From Sulfurovum sp. (GTDB taxonomy: Bacteria > Campylobacterota > Campylobacteria > Campylobacterales > Sulfurovaceae): 64,000 bases of DNA. The stretch is taken from positions 1-64,000 of the forward strand of contig JAJPEU010000007.1 in assembly GCA_021166685.1 (NCBI GenBank), in the 5' to 3' direction. A program made the position numbers and the translations under genes. Below, piece after piece: positions 36,433-43,642 of the stretch. The stretch's first letter is position 1, and each line of letters starts with the position of its first letter. Under the pieces are notes generated by a model, which saw only the letters and a program-made list of their open reading frames with translations, was not told the origin of the DNA and ran no database searches.

Positions 36433-39400
36433 CTACACCTCTCCTACCTCGTACCATTTTCGAATCCATCCATCAAAAGGCGCAATGAGCTTATAAATCA
36501 CAGGTACGACAAGCAAGGTTAGCACCATGGAACTCAACAATCCCCCTATTACTGCGATGGCCATGGGCGCCTTGGTTTCACTTCCAAGCCCTGTTGCCAT
36601 AGCCAGTGGCACCATTGCAAATACCATTGCAAGAGTTGTCATCAAAATCGGCCTAAGTCTTTTTTCTCCTGCTTCAAGAAGTGCTTCATCTGTGTTTTTC
36701 CCTTTTTGCATCGCCTCATTGGCAAAATCCACCAATAAAACAGCATTTTTCCCCACCATCCCCATCAGCAGCATAAAACCTATCATCACAAAAAGACTAA
36801 ATTGCAATTCGCTCACATAAAGCGCGAGCATTACTCCGATGATACTGAGCGGCAGTGAAACTATAATGATCACGGGCTGAATCAAAGACTCATATAAAAT
36901 AGCCAAGACAATAAACATCAAAATGATCGACAACCCTAATGCAGCGCTAAAGGCTTCCCCCGTCTTAACCATCTCCTCTGCAAACCCGGTAAATTTGTAA
37001 GTGACTCCTTCAGGCAGCAATTCATCTATTTTTTCTTTTGTATAATTGACCGCTCCGCCAAGATCGAGTCCAAACAGATCAGCGTACACGCTCACCTGCC
37101 TTTGTCTGTCAAAATGATAAATACTTGCCAAGGAAGCACTTGAAACAAAGTTTACCAAGCCGTCAAGATAAACAAGTTCTCCATTTTGTGCCCGAAGCTG
37201 AATTTTTTTGAGGTCTTCGATTGTCATTCGGTGCGCATCATCAAATCTAAGGGTAATATTGTATTGTTTCCCGTTTTCTTCAAAATGCGAAATCTCCAAA
37301 TCACTTGAAAAGGCGATAGAGATCGCTTCTGCTATTTGGGAAGCCGTGATTCCCGCCCTACTGGCATTTTCACGCAATATCTGAATGTCTATTTGCGGTT
37401 TTCCTTCATCTAAATTCGTATCGATATCGACAAACCCTTTTTTCTGAGCAAGATAGTGCGTTAAATTATGTGTGGCCTCCTTAAGCGCCTCGAGCGAATC
37501 AGATTTTAAAACAATCTGATAAGGTACGCTGACTCCTGTTCCTTTAATATTTGGAATTGCGGCAGCCGTAATATAGAGTGATTTTTGATAAGGTTTAAGT
37601 TTTTCACGTAAATTCTGGACAATCTCTTCTTGATTGAGCACCCGTTGTTTTTTCGGCGTTAATTTGACATAGACAACTGATTTGTGTATCTCCTGGGCGC
37701 TATTGTATCCCACGCTCAATGTCGTATAAAGTATATTCTGATCCTCTTTAACCAATGCCTCAATCTCTTTGGACTGTCTGATCATCTCTTCTAGAGGAAT
37801 ACCCGCATTGGCCCTGATTTGCACTTCAAATTCTGCATTGTCTTCTTTGGGAATAAAGTCCATACCTATTTTAGGAAAAAGACTCAAACTTCCTATAAAA
37901 ACAGCCAATACAAAAATGATCGTGAAAATCTTAAACCTCAACACAAAGCGCAATGCCGCCGCATAAATATTTTCTATTCCCCTAAAAAAAGGTTCGGTCA
38001 CTGTATACAATCGGCTCTCTTTTTTGTGAAGCGTCCGTGCGCTCAAACTGGGAATAAAACTTAGTGCTATCGTATAAGAAATAATAACCGCGAACCCAAC
38101 GGTCATAGCAAAAGATTCAAAGAATTTCCCCACAATCCCGCTCATATTTGCTACGGGAATGAAAACGGCTAAAAGCATTGCCGAGATAGCTAAAATGGCA
38201 AAAGAGATCTCTTTGACTCCCTCATAAGCCGCCTCTAGTCTTCCCATGCCTGCTTCAAGCTTTTTGTAAATATTTTCTATCACAACTACCGCATCATCAA
38301 TGATGATACCAATAGCAAGCGTAAGCCCGATCAGTGTCATTTTATTGAGATCATAACCCATAAAGTGCATTAAAGCAATCGTGCCGAATATGGAAGTGGG
38401 TATGGAAAGTGCCGAAACAAGCGTAATGGTCATATTGCGCAAAAAAACAAAGATGATAATGACAGCCAAAAATGCACCATAAACCAAATCGAATTCTACA
38501 TCTTTGAGAGAATTTAGAATAAACGGTGAAGTATCATTGAGCATATTGATCTCAAATCTCTCTCCCGCAAGCTGTTGCAAAAAAGGCATTTCTGCTTTCA
38601 CCTTTGAAACAATTTCTAACGTATTGGTACCCGAAATTTTTTGCACCTCAAGCATGATCCCCTCTACGCCATCATAAGAAGCATAGCTTTTGGCATCACT
38701 CAAACCGTCTTCAATTCTAGCAAGATCTTTTAGCCTAATACTTTTTTTGATATGGATATTTTCAAGCTCTTTAACACTCAACACGTCCGCTTTGGTTTTA
38801 AGAATAAACTCTTTTTCTTTGTTAATGAGTTTTCCTCCGCCGATTTTAATATTTTCTTCCGCAACAATACTATTGAGTTCCCTAACGCTTATGCCGTATT
38901 GATTAAGCTTAGTGATGTCTGGATAAATCTTGATCTCTCTGTCTTTATAACCGATAATATTGATCGCCCCCACGCCATTAATCTTTTGAAGTACCGGTTT
39001 AACTTTTTCATCGGCAAATACCATCAAATTTTGCACTGTGTCATTTTTTGCCGTAACAAAAACATTGATAACCGATGCGCCTCCAATATCGAGCTTGCTC
39101 ACCAACGGTGTTTCAGCATCTTTAGGAAGAGAAACTGCAGAAACCTTGTCTCTCACGTCATTGGTCGCTTCATCGATATTGCGCTCCAAAAAGAATTTGA
39201 CCGTTACGATACTCACTCCATCGCTGCTTGTGGAGATGATAGAATCCACCCCGCCTATTCTTGAGATTGCCTCTTCTATTTTTTCGGTCACCTCCGATTC
39301 GATCGTGGTTGGTTCAGCTCCCGGATAAACAGTTTTGATCGTGACCAAGGGAAAATCAACATTAGGAAAAAGTGCTGCGGGCATGGATTTGAAACTTATC

Positions 39401-39471
39401 CACCCAAAGATAACCAAAGTCAGCGCATACATTAATGTGGTGATCGGTCGATTTATGGCAAATTTATACAT
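36433..39471 (-). CDS. RND-family multidrug efflux pump
   Basis: The 1012-residue AcrB/MexB-type (HAE1) transporter has twelve membrane helices in two repeats and two large periplasmic loops. Proton-relay aspartates lie in GITLAIGIIIDDAVVVIENI-like sequence (LTLAIGIIIDDAVVVIEN). The N-terminus MYKFAINRPITTLMYAL is typical. It should pump hydrophobic compounds across the envelope using the proton gradient with the adaptor and TolC-like channel encoded upstream in the same transcript. Confidence 0.94.
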   Translation of the reverse strand: MYKFAINRPITTLMYALTLVIFGWISFKSMPAALFPNVDFPLVTIKTVYPGAEPTTIESEVTEKIEEAISRIGGVDSIISTSSDGVSIVTVKFFLERNIDEATNDVRDKVSAVSLPKDAETPLVSKLDIGGASVINVFVTAKNDTVQNLMVFADEKVKPVLQKINGVGAINIIGYKDREIKIYPDITKLNQYGISVRELNSIVAEENIKIGGGKLINKEKEFILKTKADVLSVKELENIHIKKSIRLKDLARIEDGLSDAKSYASYDGVEGIMLEVQKISGTNTLEIVSKVKAEMPFLQQLAGERFEINMLNDTSPFILNSLKDVEFDLVYGAFLAVIIIFVFLRNMTITLVSALSIPTSIFGTIALMHFMGYDLNKMTLIGLTLAIGIIIDDAVVVIENIYKKLEAGMGRLEAAYEGVKEISFAILAISAMLLAVFIPVANMSGIVGKFFESFAMTVGFAVIISYTIALSFIPSLSARTLHKKESRLYTVTEPFFRGIENIYAAALRFVLRFKIFTIIFVLAVFIGSLSLFPKIGMDFIPKEDNAEFEVQIRANAGIPLEEMIRQSKEIEALVKEDQNILYTTLSVGYNSAQEIHKSVVYVKLTPKKQRVLNQEEIVQNLREKLKPYQKSLYITAAAIPNIKGTGVSVPYQIVLKSDSLEALKEATHNLTHYLAQKKGFVDIDTNLDEGKPQIDIQILRENASRAGITASQIAEAISIAFSSDLEISHFEENGKQYNITLRFDDAHRMTIEDLKKIQLRAQNGELVYLDGLVNFVSSASLASIYHFDRQRQVSVYADLFGLDLGGAVNYTKEKIDELLPEGVTYKFTGFAEEMVKTGEAFSAALGLSIILMFIVLAILYESLIQPVIIIVSLPLSIIGVMLALYVSELQFSLFVMIGFMLLMGMVGKNAVLLVDFANEAMQKGKNTDEALLEAGEKRLRPILMTTLAMVFAMVPLAMATGLGSETKAPMAIAVIGGLLSSMVLTLLVVPVIYKLIAPFDGWIRKWYEVGEV

Positions 39472-39482
39472 ATCGTCCCTGC

Positions 39483-40190
39483 TTATTTATCATTTATGAG
39501 GATTGTTCCCTCGCCAAAAAGGCCGACCATCAAATCTTTAGCTTCAACTTCTGCGATCACTTTTCTGTTTTCCATATTCACCACAGGATAAATTTTGGAG
39601 ATTTTTCCCTCATGCATTTTTTCATCTCCATCGATTTTATATTTAAAGAGATCTCCTACTTTTACTTTGGCGTGATACTTTTGATCAAATTCCAGGATCA
39701 ATTTTCTCTCGTGTGCACTTTGTATCTTCAAAAGTGTTCGGATCATGGCCCCGCTCACCACATCCCCTTCCTCTAAGCTCTTTTCATAAATAACTCCATC
39801 AAAAGGAGCCCTTAAAACAGTTTTGTCCAAGAGTGACTTTTGGTATGCTGCTTGCACCTTGGCGTTCTCATACTTAAACGCATATTGGTCAAATTGCGAT
39901 TGGTCAATTATCTTTTTGACCTTCACCTGTCTATCATAGTCTAATTTCGCATACTTCAGTGCCACCTGCGCACCTTCAAGCATCACTTTAAGATCATCGT
40001 TTTGCAGTGTTGAGAGGACATCCTCTTTTTTGACTTCGCTTCCAACATCGACAGTCACTTTTTGCACAATACCGCTGCTGCTGAAGGCGAGATTGGCACT
40101 TTTTTGCGCTTCTACTTCAAATGTGGCGTAGACTTCTTCTGCGGACATTGCCGTTATCATCCACAGCATGCTCCATATAATTTTTTTCAT
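39483..40190 (-). CDS. RND efflux periplasmic adaptor (short form)
   Basis: The 235-residue membrane-fusion protein has a signal peptide (IIWSMLWMITAMSAEEVYA), lipoyl-like halves (VQKVTVDVGSEVKKEDVLS and RAPFDGVIYEKSLEEGDVV) and a short helical hairpin. It is shorter than the usual ~350 residues, with a reduced C-terminal domain. It overlaps the TolC-like gene by 4 nt and lies 11 nt before the RND gene, so the three form one unit. Confidence 0.88.
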   Translation of the reverse strand: MKKIIWSMLWMITAMSAEEVYATFEVEAQKSANLAFSSSGIVQKVTVDVGSEVKKEDVLSTLQNDDLKVMLEGAQVALKYAKLDYDRQVKVKKIIDQSQFDQYAFKYENAKVQAAYQKSLLDKTVLRAPFDGVIYEKSLEEGDVVSGAMIRTLLKIQSAHERKLILEFDQKYHAKVKVGDLFKYKIDGDEKMHEGKISKIYPVVNMENRKVIAEVEAKDLMVGLFGEGTILINDK

Positions 40191-41434
40191 CTTATAAACT
40201 CCTTGGGGTCTTTTCCTGCATAATAATAATAAATTGATTTGGCAACCTCATAGTCATACAGTGTTTCTTTATAGCGCGCTTGAGCGAGTGTCTGCTCGTT
40301 TAGTGCATCAAGATAGGCAATGTTGTCCACCAATCCGACTTCAAATTTCCTAACAATACTTTTATAGGTGCTTTTTGCCGCTTTGAGTGCACTGCCTGCG
40401 CTCTCAAGTTTGACGCGGATCGTTTTAAGATTGCTGCCGGATAGATTAAAATTCATCTTCTGTTCTTGTACTCTATAAGAATGCTCCGCATCCAATGCCA
40501 TTTTTTGATAGATCACCGCTTCACGTTCTTTTTTCATCTTTCCGTGATCAAAAAGGCGCATATTCACAGAAAGTGTAACTTTGTTCTGATGATCAAGCAA
40601 TAAGCCTTCCGTGCTTAATCCTCCTGAGTTTACCAGATCATCATAGTGTGATTTGCTATAGGTATCCTCGAGTATCACCTGCGGCTTGTATCCCGCATCG
40701 ATAGCCTTGGCATTTTCCTCAAGAGCATTCGCATTCGCATGCAAAATTTTGCTGTTTTCATAAGCTTCAAATTCTACATGCTTAGGTTCTGAAATTTGAT
40801 TGTTTTTTATATTTTTAACCGGCAGTCCGCTGATAAGCTGAAGATTTTCTTCCTGCGTTTCAAGCAAAAGCTTTGTGTTTTCTATCGTATAACGATTGTC
40901 CTCATACACGGCTTGAAGTTTGTCTATCTCTTCTTGTGTTGCCAATCCTGCTGCAGTGAATTGTTTCACACGACGCATCTGGGCTTGCAGTTCTTTGGAT
41001 TGTCCATCCAATGCATAAAGCATTGCTTTGAGCTTTTGAATCGTATAGTAGCGGTTGACAATGTCTAAAGTAATGCTTTTCGAAAAAGCCTTTTGTTCAA
41101 ATAAAGAAGCCTGGTATTCAAATTTCTTTGCTTTTTTTAGAGCACTTTTTCTTCCTCCGTCATACAGTTCCATTCCTACAGAAGCATATCCTGTTGCCAC
41201 TTCTCCCGGACTGATAAGAGAGTTTGGATTGACTCTGCTGTAATTTGCGCCTATATCCAGTGTCGGCCAATAAGCGCTTTGCTTTGCTTCTACTTCTTTG
41301 GCCTTCGCTTTGCTTCTAAGTTCACTTGAGTCCATAAGCGGATTGTGCGTATGGGCATGATCTATCAGATCTCTTAGGCCGTACGTTTGAGAAAAAATCC
41401 AAACAGGCAAAATCATCATCCATAAAATTCTCAT
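40187..41434 (-). CDS. TolC-family outer-membrane channel
   Basis: The 415-residue protein has a signal peptide (ILWMMILPVWIFSQTYG) and two long helical outer-membrane-efflux-protein repeats, each rich in Ala, Gln and Lys. LRDLIDHAHTHNPLMDSSEL begins the first. It should form the trimeric exit duct for the RND pump of the same operon and perhaps for the MacAB-type exporter nearby. Confidence 0.88.
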   Translation of the reverse strand: MRILWMMILPVWIFSQTYGLRDLIDHAHTHNPLMDSSELRSKAKAKEVEAKQSAYWPTLDIGANYSRVNPNSLISPGEVATGYASVGMELYDGGRKSALKKAKKFEYQASLFEQKAFSKSITLDIVNRYYTIQKLKAMLYALDGQSKELQAQMRRVKQFTAAGLATQEEIDKLQAVYEDNRYTIENTKLLLETQEENLQLISGLPVKNIKNNQISEPKHVEFEAYENSKILHANANALEENAKAIDAGYKPQVILEDTYSKSHYDDLVNSGGLSTEGLLLDHQNKVTLSVNMRLFDHGKMKKEREAVIYQKMALDAEHSYRVQEQKMNFNLSGSNLKTIRVKLESAGSALKAAKSTYKSIVRKFEVGLVDNIAYLDALNEQTLAQARYKETLYDYEVAKSIYYYYAGKDPKEFIR

Positions 41435-41496: not shown

Positions 41497-42594
41497 TTAC
41501 AGTTTCTCTTTAAGTGCCTGGATGCGACAATAGGCATTATCAATAGTTTCTTTTTTAATCTCACCGCTCTTAATCATCTGTACAATTAATTCAACCAATG
41601 TTTTGGTGCTTACGGTTTTTCTCGGATCAAGCTGGTTTCCAAAAAGCAGCAGATCGTTTTCCGCATTGATCGCCAGTTTAAGTGTATTTCTTAGACCATA
41701 TTTTTGCGAGATAGCTCCCATTTGCAAATCGTCTGTGATTACTGTACCGCGATAGCCTAAATCCCGGCGTAATTTTTGGGCAATAGTCTTAAAAGAAAGG
41801 CTTGCAGGATAAACCGCATCAAGCTTTTGATTGAATACATGGGCAACCATAACCGTATCCGCTTTGGCCTTAAGAAGACGGTAAGGTTCAAGCTCTTCCT
41901 TTTTCCACACTTGGGTGACATCGACAAAGCCTTTATGCGTATCCCCCAAAGAAGATCCGTGTCCAGGAAAATGTTTAATGGAAGTAAGCACACCATGCTG
42001 ATGCATTGCATCAATAAATACGGAAGCATTAGCAGCAACCCTTTGCGGATCTTTTCCAAAGGAACGTCCGAGTCCATAAATCACCCGGTTTTTAGGATTG
42101 AGCGCCAGATCGACCACCGGAGCAAGGTCAAAATTGATTCCGACACCTTGCAGTTCCCGGCTCATTTTTTGATAAACAGTTTTTATTTGGGATGCATTCA
42201 TTTTGCTGACCTCCGCAGCCATGGGAAACCTGCCATAAAAACCGTAAACACTTTTAAGTCTTTGAACTTTTCCTCCTTCTTGATCTACTGCAATAAGCAA
42301 CTTTCCGTCTTGGCTGCATGCTTGCAGTTCTTTTGTCAATTGGGCAAGCTGTTTTTTTGAAGCAATATTTTTAGGCTTCTTTTTATCTACCGGGTTATAA
42401 TCAAATAAAATAACGGCTCCCAGATTGTATCGCTTGATATCCTGACATATCTGCGTATTCGCGTTTGCCGTAGTCCCATAAAATCCTACCATCAGCATCT
42501 GACCTATGCGTCTCTCCAGCGATACGTCATCCCTTGCGATCAAACCAGCAGCAATACAAATCATGCTCACAACAAAAAATAGTTTTTTTATCAT
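41497..42594 (-). CDS. NagZ-like beta-N-acetylhexosaminidase (GH3)
   Basis: The 365-residue enzyme has a signal peptide (LFFVVSMICIAAGLIA) and a glycoside hydrolase 3 domain. KHFPGHGSSLGDTHKG is the NagZ Asp-His loop, and VITDDLQMGAI carries the nucleophile Asp. Enzymes of this group remove N-acetylglucosamine from muropeptides. Here the signal peptide suggests a periplasmic or secreted form, whereas E. coli NagZ is cytoplasmic. It is divergently arranged from the repeat region and thioredoxin-like gene. Confidence 0.88.
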   Translation of the reverse strand: MIKKLFFVVSMICIAAGLIARDDVSLERRIGQMLMVGFYGTTANANTQICQDIKRYNLGAVILFDYNPVDKKKPKNIASKKQLAQLTKELQACSQDGKLLIAVDQEGGKVQRLKSVYGFYGRFPMAAEVSKMNASQIKTVYQKMSRELQGVGINFDLAPVVDLALNPKNRVIYGLGRSFGKDPQRVAANASVFIDAMHQHGVLTSIKHFPGHGSSLGDTHKGFVDVTQVWKKEELEPYRLLKAKADTVMVAHVFNQKLDAVYPASLSFKTIAQKLRRDLGYRGTVITDDLQMGAISQKYGLRNTLKLAINAENDLLLFGNQLDPRKTVSTKTLVELIVQMIKSGEIKKETIDNAYCRIQALKEKL

Positions 42595-42636: not shown

Positions 42637-42799
42637 TTTTGATTATTAGTGTACGGTTAACCTTTGAGATGTACCATACTGTCACAAGAGCATCCAGGGT
42701 ACATATCCCACCCTATCTTGAAATATGATATTTTACTCCTCCTTATTAAAATATTTCCCTTCCTTTTATTCTGGATGCTCTTTGTAAATTAGTTTAGAC
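42637..42799 (+). repeat. Tandem intergenic repeat, copy 1
   Basis: About 163 nt, matching 42844-43005 with blocks of complete identity: the first 29-30 nt, the C/U-rich hairpin, and the 3' stretch TTCTGGATGCTCTTTGTAAATTA. The copies are 207 nt apart. See the RNA call within it. Confidence 0.9.
42684..42785 (+). ncRNA. Candidate anti-Shine-Dalgarno small RNA, copy 1
   Basis: The 5' arm ACAAGAGCATCCAG (42684-42697) pairs with CTGGATGCTCTTTGT (42771-42785), 14 pairs with one bulge. Inside, AGGGT/ACCCT forms a small hairpin. ATATTTTA (42728-42735) pairs with TAAAATAT (42747-42754), leaving loop CTCCTCCTTAT, complementary to GGAGG ribosome-binding sites. TACCAT (42672-42677) is a weak -10 seven nt before the 5' arm. 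T7 lies at 42802-42808. Transcription is inferred. Confidence 0.5.
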
Positions 42800-42843
42800 G
42801 ATTTTTTTACTCTCTCATTTTTTCATATTTTTCTTTAAACGGT

Positions 42844-43005
42844 TTTTGATTATTAGTGTACGGTTAACCTTTGAGAGGTATTATGTTGCTACAAGAGCAT
42901 TCAGGGTGTCCCATCCTGTACTGAATTATGATATTTTACTCCTCCTTATTAAAATATTTTCCCCTTCCTTTTATTCTGGATGCTCTTTGTAAATTATTTT
43001 AGACA
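42844..43005 (+). repeat. Tandem intergenic repeat, copy 2
   Basis: Second copy of the repeat at 42637-42799. Divergence is concentrated just upstream of the closing stem and in the small first hairpin, while the stem, C/U loop and promoter-proximal block with GGTTAACC (42862-42869) are conserved. Confidence 0.9.
42891..42990 (+). ncRNA. Candidate anti-Shine-Dalgarno small RNA, copy 2
   Basis: ACAAGAGCATTCAG (42891-42904) pairs with CTGGATGCTCTTTGT (42976-42990). The single change from copy 1 (C to T) gives a G-U pair in plus-strand RNA but an A-C mismatch in minus-strand RNA, supporting plus-strand function. The inner hairpin (42931-42938 with 42950-42957) and its loop CTCCTCCTTAT are identical to copy 1. 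TATTAT (42879-42884) is a good -10 placed so that transcription would start at the stem. Confidence 0.55.
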
Positions 43006-43044
43006 AATACATTTAATTGCACAATTTTTACATCTTCAATAGTG

Positions 43045-43050
43045 TATAAT
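43045..43050 (+). promoter_or_regulatory. Probable -10 box of the thioredoxin-like gene
   Basis: TATAAT, 28 nt before the ATG at 43079. It lies after repeat copy 2, so the gene can be expressed independently of the candidate small RNAs. Confidence 0.6.
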
Positions 43051-43078: not shown

Positions 43079-43642
43079 ATGAAAAAAATAGTAACATTGG
43101 CATTGTTGATCTTTTCTCTTTTCTCTTATGCGCAGGCGCAAGAAATACCAAATAAAGAACATACATTTACGATCACCGACATTAAAGGTGTTTCTTATGA
43201 AATTAACGGCAAAGAAGAAGGGTTAGATATTAAAGGACTTGAAGGAAAAATCGTCTTTTTGGAATTTTTTGGGCATAAGTGTCCGCCATGCTTGGCTAGC
43301 ATTCCCCATCTTATTAGCCTGCAGGAAAAACATAAAGACAGTTTGGCAATCATAGCACTTGAAGTACAAGGATATGACAATGCAAAATTATCTGCATTTG
43401 CGAAAGAAAAAGGCATAAACTATATTGCAGTATCCGAAGAAACAAGCGGAGATTTTGTTAATTATATTAGTCAAAGAGCTGAATGGAATGGAAATATTCC
43501 TTTTTTAATTGCTTTAGATGCAAAAGGAAGCGTTCAGTTTATTCAAGCCGGTATGATGCCCGAAGCATCCCTGGAAGAACTCATCAGACAGCTCACGCCT
43601 CCACAGACAACAGAAACCAATCAAACCGCCCAAACCAATTAA
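43079..43642 (+). CDS. Exported thioredoxin-fold (TlpA-like) protein
   Basis: From the ATG at 43079 the 187-residue protein has a signal peptide (IVTLALLIFSLFSYAQAQ) and a TlpA/ResA-type domain with redox motif CPPC in FFGHKCPPCLAS. It is probably a periplasmic thiol reductase, for example in cytochrome c maturation or disulfide repair. The frame opens earlier at 43049, but the TATAAT box overlaps that start. AAAGGCTTGAAT precedes ATG 43079. Confidence 0.85.
   Translation: MKKIVTLALLIFSLFSYAQAQEIPNKEHTFTITDIKGVSYEINGKEEGLDIKGLEGKIVFLEFFGHKCPPCLASIPHLISLQEKHKDSLAIIALEVQGYDNAKLSAFAKEKGINYIAVSEETSGDFVNYISQRAEWNGNIPFLIALDAKGSVQFIQAGMMPEASLEELIRQLTPPQTTETNQTAQTN

Follow-up and report, generated by a model that had tools for sequence, protein, structure and literature searches.

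What is encoded by two side-by-side repeats that lie between divergently transcribed genes in a Sulfurovum genome? In a stretch of 64,000 nucleotides from Sulfurovum sp. (positions 1 to 64,000 of contig JAJPEU010000007.1, assembly GCA_021166685.1; hereafter the window), one unit occurs in two tandem copies, at approximately 42637-42799 and 42844-43004 by alignment, in the interval between a nagZ-like and a tlpA-like gene. A first-pass annotation, made from the letters of the window alone, had picked out these repeats between divergent genes as candidate small RNAs (sRNAs) with an anti-Shine-Dalgarno loop, and the alignment bears out their arrangement. Each copy also contains, as that annotation had stated, exactly the same 11-nt loop, CTCCTCCTTAT, carried by an AT stem of 8 bp. 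The loop sequence alone is unremarkable, with two matches at no more than one mismatch compared with 0.92 expected; judged by comparison between genomes, what lies far beyond chance is the genus-wide conservation of the whole unit, not the loop by itself. This comparison indicates that the repeats are members of a real, apparently new, genus-wide family of structured sRNAs conserved in Sulfurovum. We put the probability at about 0.7 that they specify plus-strand, trans-acting sRNAs of about 100 nt, expressed from their own promoters, that would block the Shine-Dalgarno sequences of several mRNAs.

The RNA family and its distribution

Comparison of copies is what establishes the family, the strand of its RNA, the closing helix, the exposure of its motifs in predicted folds, the promoter block and the locus. 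For this comparison we built a covariance model, designated R1, that covers only the RNA, from 57 aligned copies (alignment A2); the promoter region lies outside the model. Five of 62 candidates were dropped before alignment. Since the 57 copies were selected with operator and stem filters, the conservation of the promoter and of the first eight helix pairs in A2 is partly due to selection; this filter affected neither pairs 9-11 nor the 37 copies that are not in A2. Counts over 93 copies refer to a set comprising 108 R1 matches less five (L111, L141 and three minus-strand echoes), with identical sequences merged and L146 and L147 added. One of the A2 copies, L070, lies outside this set.

A covariance-model search of Campylobacterota genomes had been suggested by the first-pass annotation. 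R1 matches 72 of the 78 Sulfurovum genomes at E<=1e-4, to which G139 was added with laxer filters (E 7.9e-4), so that the RNA is found in 73 of the 78. Among 397 genomes across the class, E<1e-3 was reached by Sulfurovum genomes only, the best other match being in G507 (E 0.0039, 34.6 bits). The filters of these large searches lose weak matches: strict genome-wide filters missed G139, and a copy in G034 escaped the whole-genome R1 search and was found in a locus scan only, so more diverged copies may be missed. Two weak matches outside the genus, in G163 (39.6 bits) and G056 (34), have neither promoter block nor synteny and were taken as chance. The five Sulfurovum genomes with no R1 match are G074, G093, G095, G112 and G114; nagZ was found in G093 only, with no tlpA in its examined flank. 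By the R1 tally, at least two copies are present in 25 genomes (three matches at E 0.02-0.09 excluded), with two predicted in G064, and no further copy was found beyond the tandem pair in the genome from which the window comes.

At the DNA level, 175 genomes of the taxonomic family yielded 30 loci, and 27 of the 29 that lie in other genomes (L003-L031) carry similar units, all in the same genus. When named genomes were searched with the pattern GTTAACC-N9-TANNNT-N8/9-AAGAGCAT, 42 stretches were obtained, of which 38 bear one of the labels Sulfurovum, Epsilonproteobacteria, Campylobacterales or Campylobacterota; the remaining four (Lachnospiraceae, Vulcanisaeta, Lacticaseibacillus and Pullulanibacillus) failed the stem filter. 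In the sister genus g6, the G034 copy lies between nagZ and tlpA, scores 31.7 bits with R1 and has CGGTTAA and TATACT upstream. Its closing helix, AAGGATATCGG/CCGATATCCTT, replaces AAGAGCAT/ATGCTCTT, so that in this one genome the pairing is kept and the sequence wholly replaced.

In G090, G091, G097, G100, G137 and G138 (including loci L016, L021 and L031) the tandem partners are of two types, with operators ATTTGCATACGG and ATTAGTRTTCAG side by side, which suggests an old duplication followed by divergence. The pair in the window is unlike these, its copies sharing 33 identical bases in the promoter block. A search of the window against Rfam 15 gave no match at the gathering threshold (the presence of alpha-r14/cuckoo RNAs in Rfam was not checked) and a single unrelated match of 13.6 bits at E<=5. 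Among the papers listed by literature searches on Sulfurovum sRNAs, cuckoo/CcsR RNAs, structured RNAs of the group and Campylobacterota anti-Shine-Dalgarno sequences, no title or abstract opening describes the family.

The closing helix and the strand of the RNA

The ends of each RNA are joined by a closing helix, which in the window consists of AAGAGCATCCAG/CTGGATGCTCTT (12 bp) and is extended by ACA/TGT beyond a bulge. Since a G-U pair on one strand is an A-C mismatch on the other, exceptions to Watson-Crick pairing reveal which strand is the RNA. Across pairs 1-11 of the 93 distinct copies we counted 945 Watson-Crick pairs, 44 G-U pairs, two A-C mismatches and 32 other combinations, and the ratio of 44 to 2 identifies the plus strand, in agreement with the plus-strand structured RNA originally proposed. 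Helix position 12 was excluded from this count, since many copies are out of register there (27 A-C); when it is included, there are 46 G-U pairs and 29 A-C mismatches. The single C-to-T difference in the closing stem of copy 2, at 42901, gives a U-G pair on the plus strand and an A-C mismatch on the minus strand, just as the first-pass annotation had read it.

Predicted folds also differ between the strands. Over the 93 copies the mean fold z is -4.68 for the plus strand and -2.89 for the minus strand (40 shuffles each), and the plus strand is the more negative in 84 of them. In the window, copy 1 folds on the plus strand at -26.4 kcal/mol, with none of 200 dinucleotide shuffles as good, and copy 2 at -21.3 kcal/mol, with one of 200 as good (z in Table 1), compared with minus-strand z of -2.60 and -0.41, respectively. 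When the helix partners are slid against each other in A2, pairing falls from 91.8% to at most 51.4%. The pairing is also supported by double changes in A2, which occur at six of the 12 closing-helix pairs (reached in two of 500 shuffles) and in 54 cells compared with 21.9 in shuffles (none of 500).

Exposed C/U motifs

CUCC or CCUC is present in all 93 copies, CCUCC in 92 and CUCCUU in 87, and 63 copies contain at least two CUCCUU/CUCCCU motifs. The interiors of the 57 A2 copies hold 250 CUCC/CCUC sites, compared with 48.5 (standard deviation 7.0) in same-base shuffles. In the predicted folds of these RNAs the sites have a mean unpaired probability of 0.93 and the remaining interior bases one of 0.54, the former being higher in 57 of 57 RNAs, and a CU cluster is located within a hairpin loop in every one of the 93 minimum-free-energy (MFE) folds. 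CCTCC precedes the 3' arm in 76 of the 93 copies, and the window copies are without CCTCC there. The exact 11-nt loop that the first-pass annotation had described is not the unit that relatives share: they hold one to three CUCC/CCUC clusters per RNA in differing hairpins, and the carrier hairpins vary in sequence between subgroups while the motif stays. Homologues keep both the stem pairing and the unpaired C/U motifs, the two features on which the original proposal had been made to depend.

The promoter block and its control

Upstream of the RNA, GTT[AT]A is present in 92 of the 93 copies, and in 91 of these 92 a TANNNT begins 16 nt downstream of its G, which supports the proposal of a control block followed by a -10-like box. 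Conservation is strong from -12 to +8 around GTT[AT]A, and most bases from there to the -10 box are unconserved. Among the 37 copies outside the R1 training set, GTT[AT]A occurs in 36, and in 35 TANNNT accompanies it at the fixed distance. In-register information amounts to 38.3 bits over 50 positions upstream compared with 13.5 bits over 46 positions downstream. Details of the earlier description need revision: a conserved block is indeed found at the promoter, but the run of identical bases that spans it in both window copies is 33 nt long, not 29, and the AAGAG helix starts 8 nt after the -10 box instead of 7.

At up to three mismatches, TTATTAGTRTWCRGTTAACC occurs in the genome of the window only at the two copies, and a looser operator pattern adds one site with one mismatch (G000:C8:22130). 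Across the genus the operator pattern gives 97 matches in 69 of the 78 genomes, yet a reversed control gives 112, so that it is the location of the matches and not their number that constitutes evidence: 91 lie at the RNAs, and the six elsewhere all have one mismatch, one of them being in the genome of the window. The loose pattern also marked sites that R1 did not confirm, for example inside nagZ, and these were not counted as copies.

No -35 box was recognised, which raises the idea of an activator. The half-sites ATTAGT and GTTAAC start 11 bp apart and, with a transcript start at the base of the helix, would lie at an estimated -42 to -23. The HP1043 consensus consists of two TTTAAG hexamers separated by 5 bp, which on its model promoter occupy -42 to -26 (PMC8345958). 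The spacing of the Sulfurovum half-sites over the -35 region resembles this OmpR/PhoB-type arrangement, an analogy that offers a candidate lead only.

Proposed mechanism

Since the ends of the RNA are locked in one helix, several anti-Shine-Dalgarno sites are exposed and each copy has its own promoter, the RNAs are best read as trans-acting translational repressors. Transcription, the activator, repression and its targets are the parts of this reading that we infer. The stress induction that the first-pass annotation had suggested as possible finds no support in the present data. Each tandem copy would be transcribed from its own promoter, where a DNA-binding activator, possibly a response regulator of the OmpR/PhoB type to judge by the geometry, would bind the 21-bp block (roughly -42 to -23) and bring in polymerase at the -10 box, with transcription starting no more than a few bases away from the 5' arm of the closing helix. 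By clamping the 5' and 3' ends, this helix would probably protect the RNA without Hfq and help to end transcription; it ends in GCUCUU and may serve as a terminator. The hairpin loop and the flanking single strands would expose CUCC, CCUCC and CUCCUU, complementary to the Shine-Dalgarno sequence AAGGAG, and ribosomes would be kept from binding several mRNAs whose accessible Shine-Dalgarno sequences pair with these motifs. Neither Hfq nor CsrA was found in any of nine Sulfurovum genomes (that of the window and eight relatives); the same search finds Hfq in control genomes, and CsrA was found in three of four genomes from other families of the order.

Several results weigh against repression in trans as set out here. 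A specific target reached through the exact loop was considered and rejected: in the genome of the window its exact complement, ATAAGGAGGAG, is confined to the sites opposite the two RNAs, and at no more than one mismatch there are 25 matches, including those two, compared with 27 for the control. The target search that the first-pass annotation had recommended hence finds no enrichment, and specificity would have to come from shorter seeds or from several sites together, or else be low. A 6-nt match at the Shine-Dalgarno position is present in eight of 58 window open reading frames (ORFs), a result of little specificity and uninformative. In the window, a consensus promoter scan returned five promoter-like sites against 4.3 expected and flagged neither proposed sRNA promoter, and a terminator consensus scan returned none. 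TTTT stands near the helix end in 26 of the 93 copies, 72 of the 93 MFE folds, not all, leave more than 70% of the last CU cluster unpaired, and the operator matches are, as noted, fewer than those of the reversed control. Of the covariation measures in A2, those on double changes can be inflated by related sequences, and further pair types are not above shuffles (16 against 14.4; 88 of 500).

Alternative explanations

A global brake on translation, in which the RNA mimics the 3' tail of 16S rRNA and competes for strong Shine-Dalgarno sequences generally, is in our view unlikely. The tail reads CCUCCUUU, and the frequencies of CUCCUU and CCUCC, often with two or more sites per RNA, fit this explanation, as do hairpins that vary while the motif stays, which generic targeting would predict, and the lack of an enriched specific target. 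However, very high copy number would be needed, and the 16S 3' end was not found at up to one mismatch in the genome of the window (three chance-like matches), so that mimicry rests on the tail as generally known. The draft assembly of that genome (G000) may lack an rRNA operon. A wider proposition, which we hold to be rather unlikely, is that chemolithoautotrophs without Hfq and CsrA evolved ribosome-mimic RNAs as a tunable global brake on initiation, combining an end-to-end helix, several copies of the 16S anti-Shine-Dalgarno tail and a promoter element hardly used elsewhere.

Repeated exposed C/U tracts could also make the RNA a sponge for an RNA-binding protein (S1-like, cold-shock or Rho-type, for example), in which case tandem copies would increase its dose; repetition is common among sponge RNAs. 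This seems distinctly unlikely, since the motif is specifically CUCC/CCUC and not any C/U order, as the comparison with same-base shuffles indicates, and the explanation comes without a candidate protein.

Repression in trans, which we prefer to both of these explanations, must also be set against a role in cis, as a leader or attenuator of tlpA. Wherever both flanks were examined (tblastn with the window proteins), a copy sits between divergent nagZ and tlpA. Downstream genes were identified for 91 copies (none for two of the 93), and 85 of these copies lie upstream of tlpA on its strand, the other six being upstream of yibQ. Nevertheless, the gap to the downstream gene is between 47 and 392 nt long (measured through the second copy for the first of a pair), each tandem copy has its own promoter block, and the 75 nt that precede the downstream gene contain a -10-like hexamer in 72 of 74 distinct regions, compared with 23.9 (largest 34) in 200 shuffles. 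Further copies occur upstream of yibQ, between ilvC and yibQ, in five genomes (G064, G065, G066, G086 and G103). Set against these observations, a tlpA leader is very improbable, although read-through into the downstream gene may occur.

It is more doubtful still that the unit is a type I toxin-antitoxin system, another small-peptide gene or a mobile hairpin repeat, as its tandem arrangement and long end-to-end helix might suggest. Frames of at least 20 amino acids are present in nine of the 93 copies on the plus strand and five on the minus strand, but the median longest frames, of four and seven amino acids, respectively, are short and speak against a peptide or toxin-antitoxin gene. The RNA lengths are spread evenly over all three frame remainders, and on sequence grounds the family RNA is judged non-coding. 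A mobile repeat is rejected, since the copies of a genome occupy one or two fixed loci and no other copy was found in the genome of the window. Finally, a minus-strand sponge for CsrA, with GGA-rich loops reading AAGGAGGA that resemble those of CsrB/RsmZ RNAs, can be dismissed given the failure to find CsrA in nine of nine genomes, the 44-to-2 strand count and the little in-register conservation (13.5 bits) on what would be its promoter side.

Relation to known small RNAs

The comparison with 'cuckoo' RNAs of Alphaproteobacteria made by the first-pass annotation is apt as an analogy. In the available descriptions, alpha-r14/cuckoo RNAs have unpaired anti-Shine-Dalgarno motifs on differing stems, the NfeR1 promoter includes an upstream stretch of 29 nt that is conserved (PMC10746234), and CcsR1-4 form a cluster of homologous copies (PMC10253847); unpaired motifs, varied stems, a conserved upstream stretch and homologous copies are likewise features of the Sulfurovum RNAs. 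As far as these descriptions go, alpha-r14 RNAs contain three hairpins, each with identical CCUCCUCCC, whereas the Sulfurovum RNAs have one end-joining helix and varying motifs, the window loop being CTCCTCCTTAT and loops differing between copies and species. RNAs of the CcsR type adjoin a DUF1127 gene; the window neighbours are instead Glyco_hydro_3, Redoxin-like and DprA by Pfam (relatives compared by tblastn with the window proteins), each copy has a promoter block, and no other ORF of at least 60 amino acids was found in the nagZ-tlpA interval. Since the family has neither hairpins with identical CCUCCUCCC nor the gene context of CcsR, we do not file it under alpha-r14/cuckoo: by this comparison the Sulfurovum RNAs are analogous to those RNAs and not members, with a functional likeness that appears close.

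NmsRA and NmsRB of Neisseria meningitidis are tandem siblings in one intergenic region with two predicted anti-Shine-Dalgarno motifs that mediate downregulation (PMC5362039). Their host has Hfq, they have predicted Rho-independent terminators, and the description available does not mention an end-to-end closing helix. The earlier statement that no equivalent is known in Campylobacterota was too strong, since RepG of Helicobacter pylori acts via a C/U-rich loop (PMC8295292) and, in Campylobacter jejuni, the ~98-nt CJnc230 (FlmE) includes CCUU as a putative single-stranded anti-Shine-Dalgarno stretch (PMC11187230). As described there, RepG is encoded between hp1043 and hp1044, unlike the nagZ-tlpA locus of the Sulfurovum RNAs, and CJnc230 lies downstream of flgE, is RpoN-dependent and has two stem-loops flanking its anti-Shine-Dalgarno stretch. 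TlpB of H. pylori, a chemoreceptor, has no relation to the TlpA-like thioredoxin of the window.

Features of the window and neighbouring genes

The features of the two copies and of their flanks are collected in Table 1. By eye, positions 43021-43050 contain a tlpA promoter block of approximately TTACACRATTNTTACATCTTCA followed by TATAAT, which recurs in many relatives and may be a second regulatory site. Beside nagZ, at 36433-41434 on the minus strand, are RND-type efflux genes (AcrB-like, HlyD-like and outer membrane efflux protein). Other genera with nagZ beside a tlpA-like gene (for example L150, L152, L159 and L160) have a short interval with no R1 match at E<=1. The copies between ilvC and yibQ, genes that we presume to be such from their sequences, are at L106 6229-6338, L107 3195-3304, L108 3059-3338, L109 7077-7188 and L110 3867-3978, and a separate TATAAT box lies between each of them and yibQ. 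The yibQ homologue in the window is Polysacc_deac_2 by Pfam.

Table 1. Features of the tandem sRNA locus in the window. R1 scores are for copies that were themselves among the sequences from which R1 was built.
Feature	Position	Strand	Basis
sRNA copy 1, predicted transcript of ~100 nt with inferred ends	42683..42786	+	R1 82 bits, fold z -6.05
Closing helix, 5' arm, copy 1	42686..42697	+	Alignment, fold, pairing counts
Closing helix, 3' arm, copy 1	42771..42782	+	Alignment, fold, pairing counts
Inner hairpin, copy 1, loop CTCCTCCTTAT at 42736-42746	42728..42754	+	Fold
3' unpaired C/U tract CCCTTCCTTTT, copy 1	42757..42767	+	Alignment, fold
Promoter block (operator), copy 1, TTATTAGTGTACGGTTAACCT	42643..42663	+	Pattern scans, 93-copy comparison
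-10 box TACCAT, copy 1	42672..42677	+	Fixed spacing in copies
sRNA copy 2, predicted transcript with inferred ends	42890..42991	+	R1 72.7 bits, fold z -3.31
Closing helix, 5' arm, copy 2, AAGAGCATTCAG	42893..42904	+	Alignment, fold, pairing counts
Closing helix, 3' arm, copy 2	42976..42987	+	Alignment, fold, pairing counts
Inner hairpin, copy 2, loop CTCCTCCTTAT at 42939-42949	42931..42957	+	Fold
3' unpaired C/U tract CCCCTTCCTTTT, copy 2	42961..42972	+	Alignment, fold
Promoter block (operator), copy 2	42850..42870	+	Pattern scans, 93-copy comparison
-10 box TATTAT, copy 2	42879..42884	+	Alignment, fixed spacing in copies
nagZ-like divergent neighbour (Glyco_hydro_3)	41497..42594	-	Pfam PF00933; conserved neighbour
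tlpA-like downstream neighbour (Redoxin/thioredoxin fold)	43079..43642	+	Pfam PF08534, PF00578, PF13905; conserved neighbour
Downstream gene's separate -10 box, TATAAT	43045..43050	+	Argues against a shared leader

Significance

The repeats represent an apparently new RNA family in Sulfurovum, a genus for which no paper listed by our literature searches describes an sRNA in its title or abstract opening. A translational-repressor mechanism is probable for this family, and it would add an independent example of RNAs with several anti-Shine-Dalgarno sites, from bacteria in which neither Hfq nor CsrA was found. It makes testable how RNAs with broad targets may achieve specificity and stability without a chaperone.
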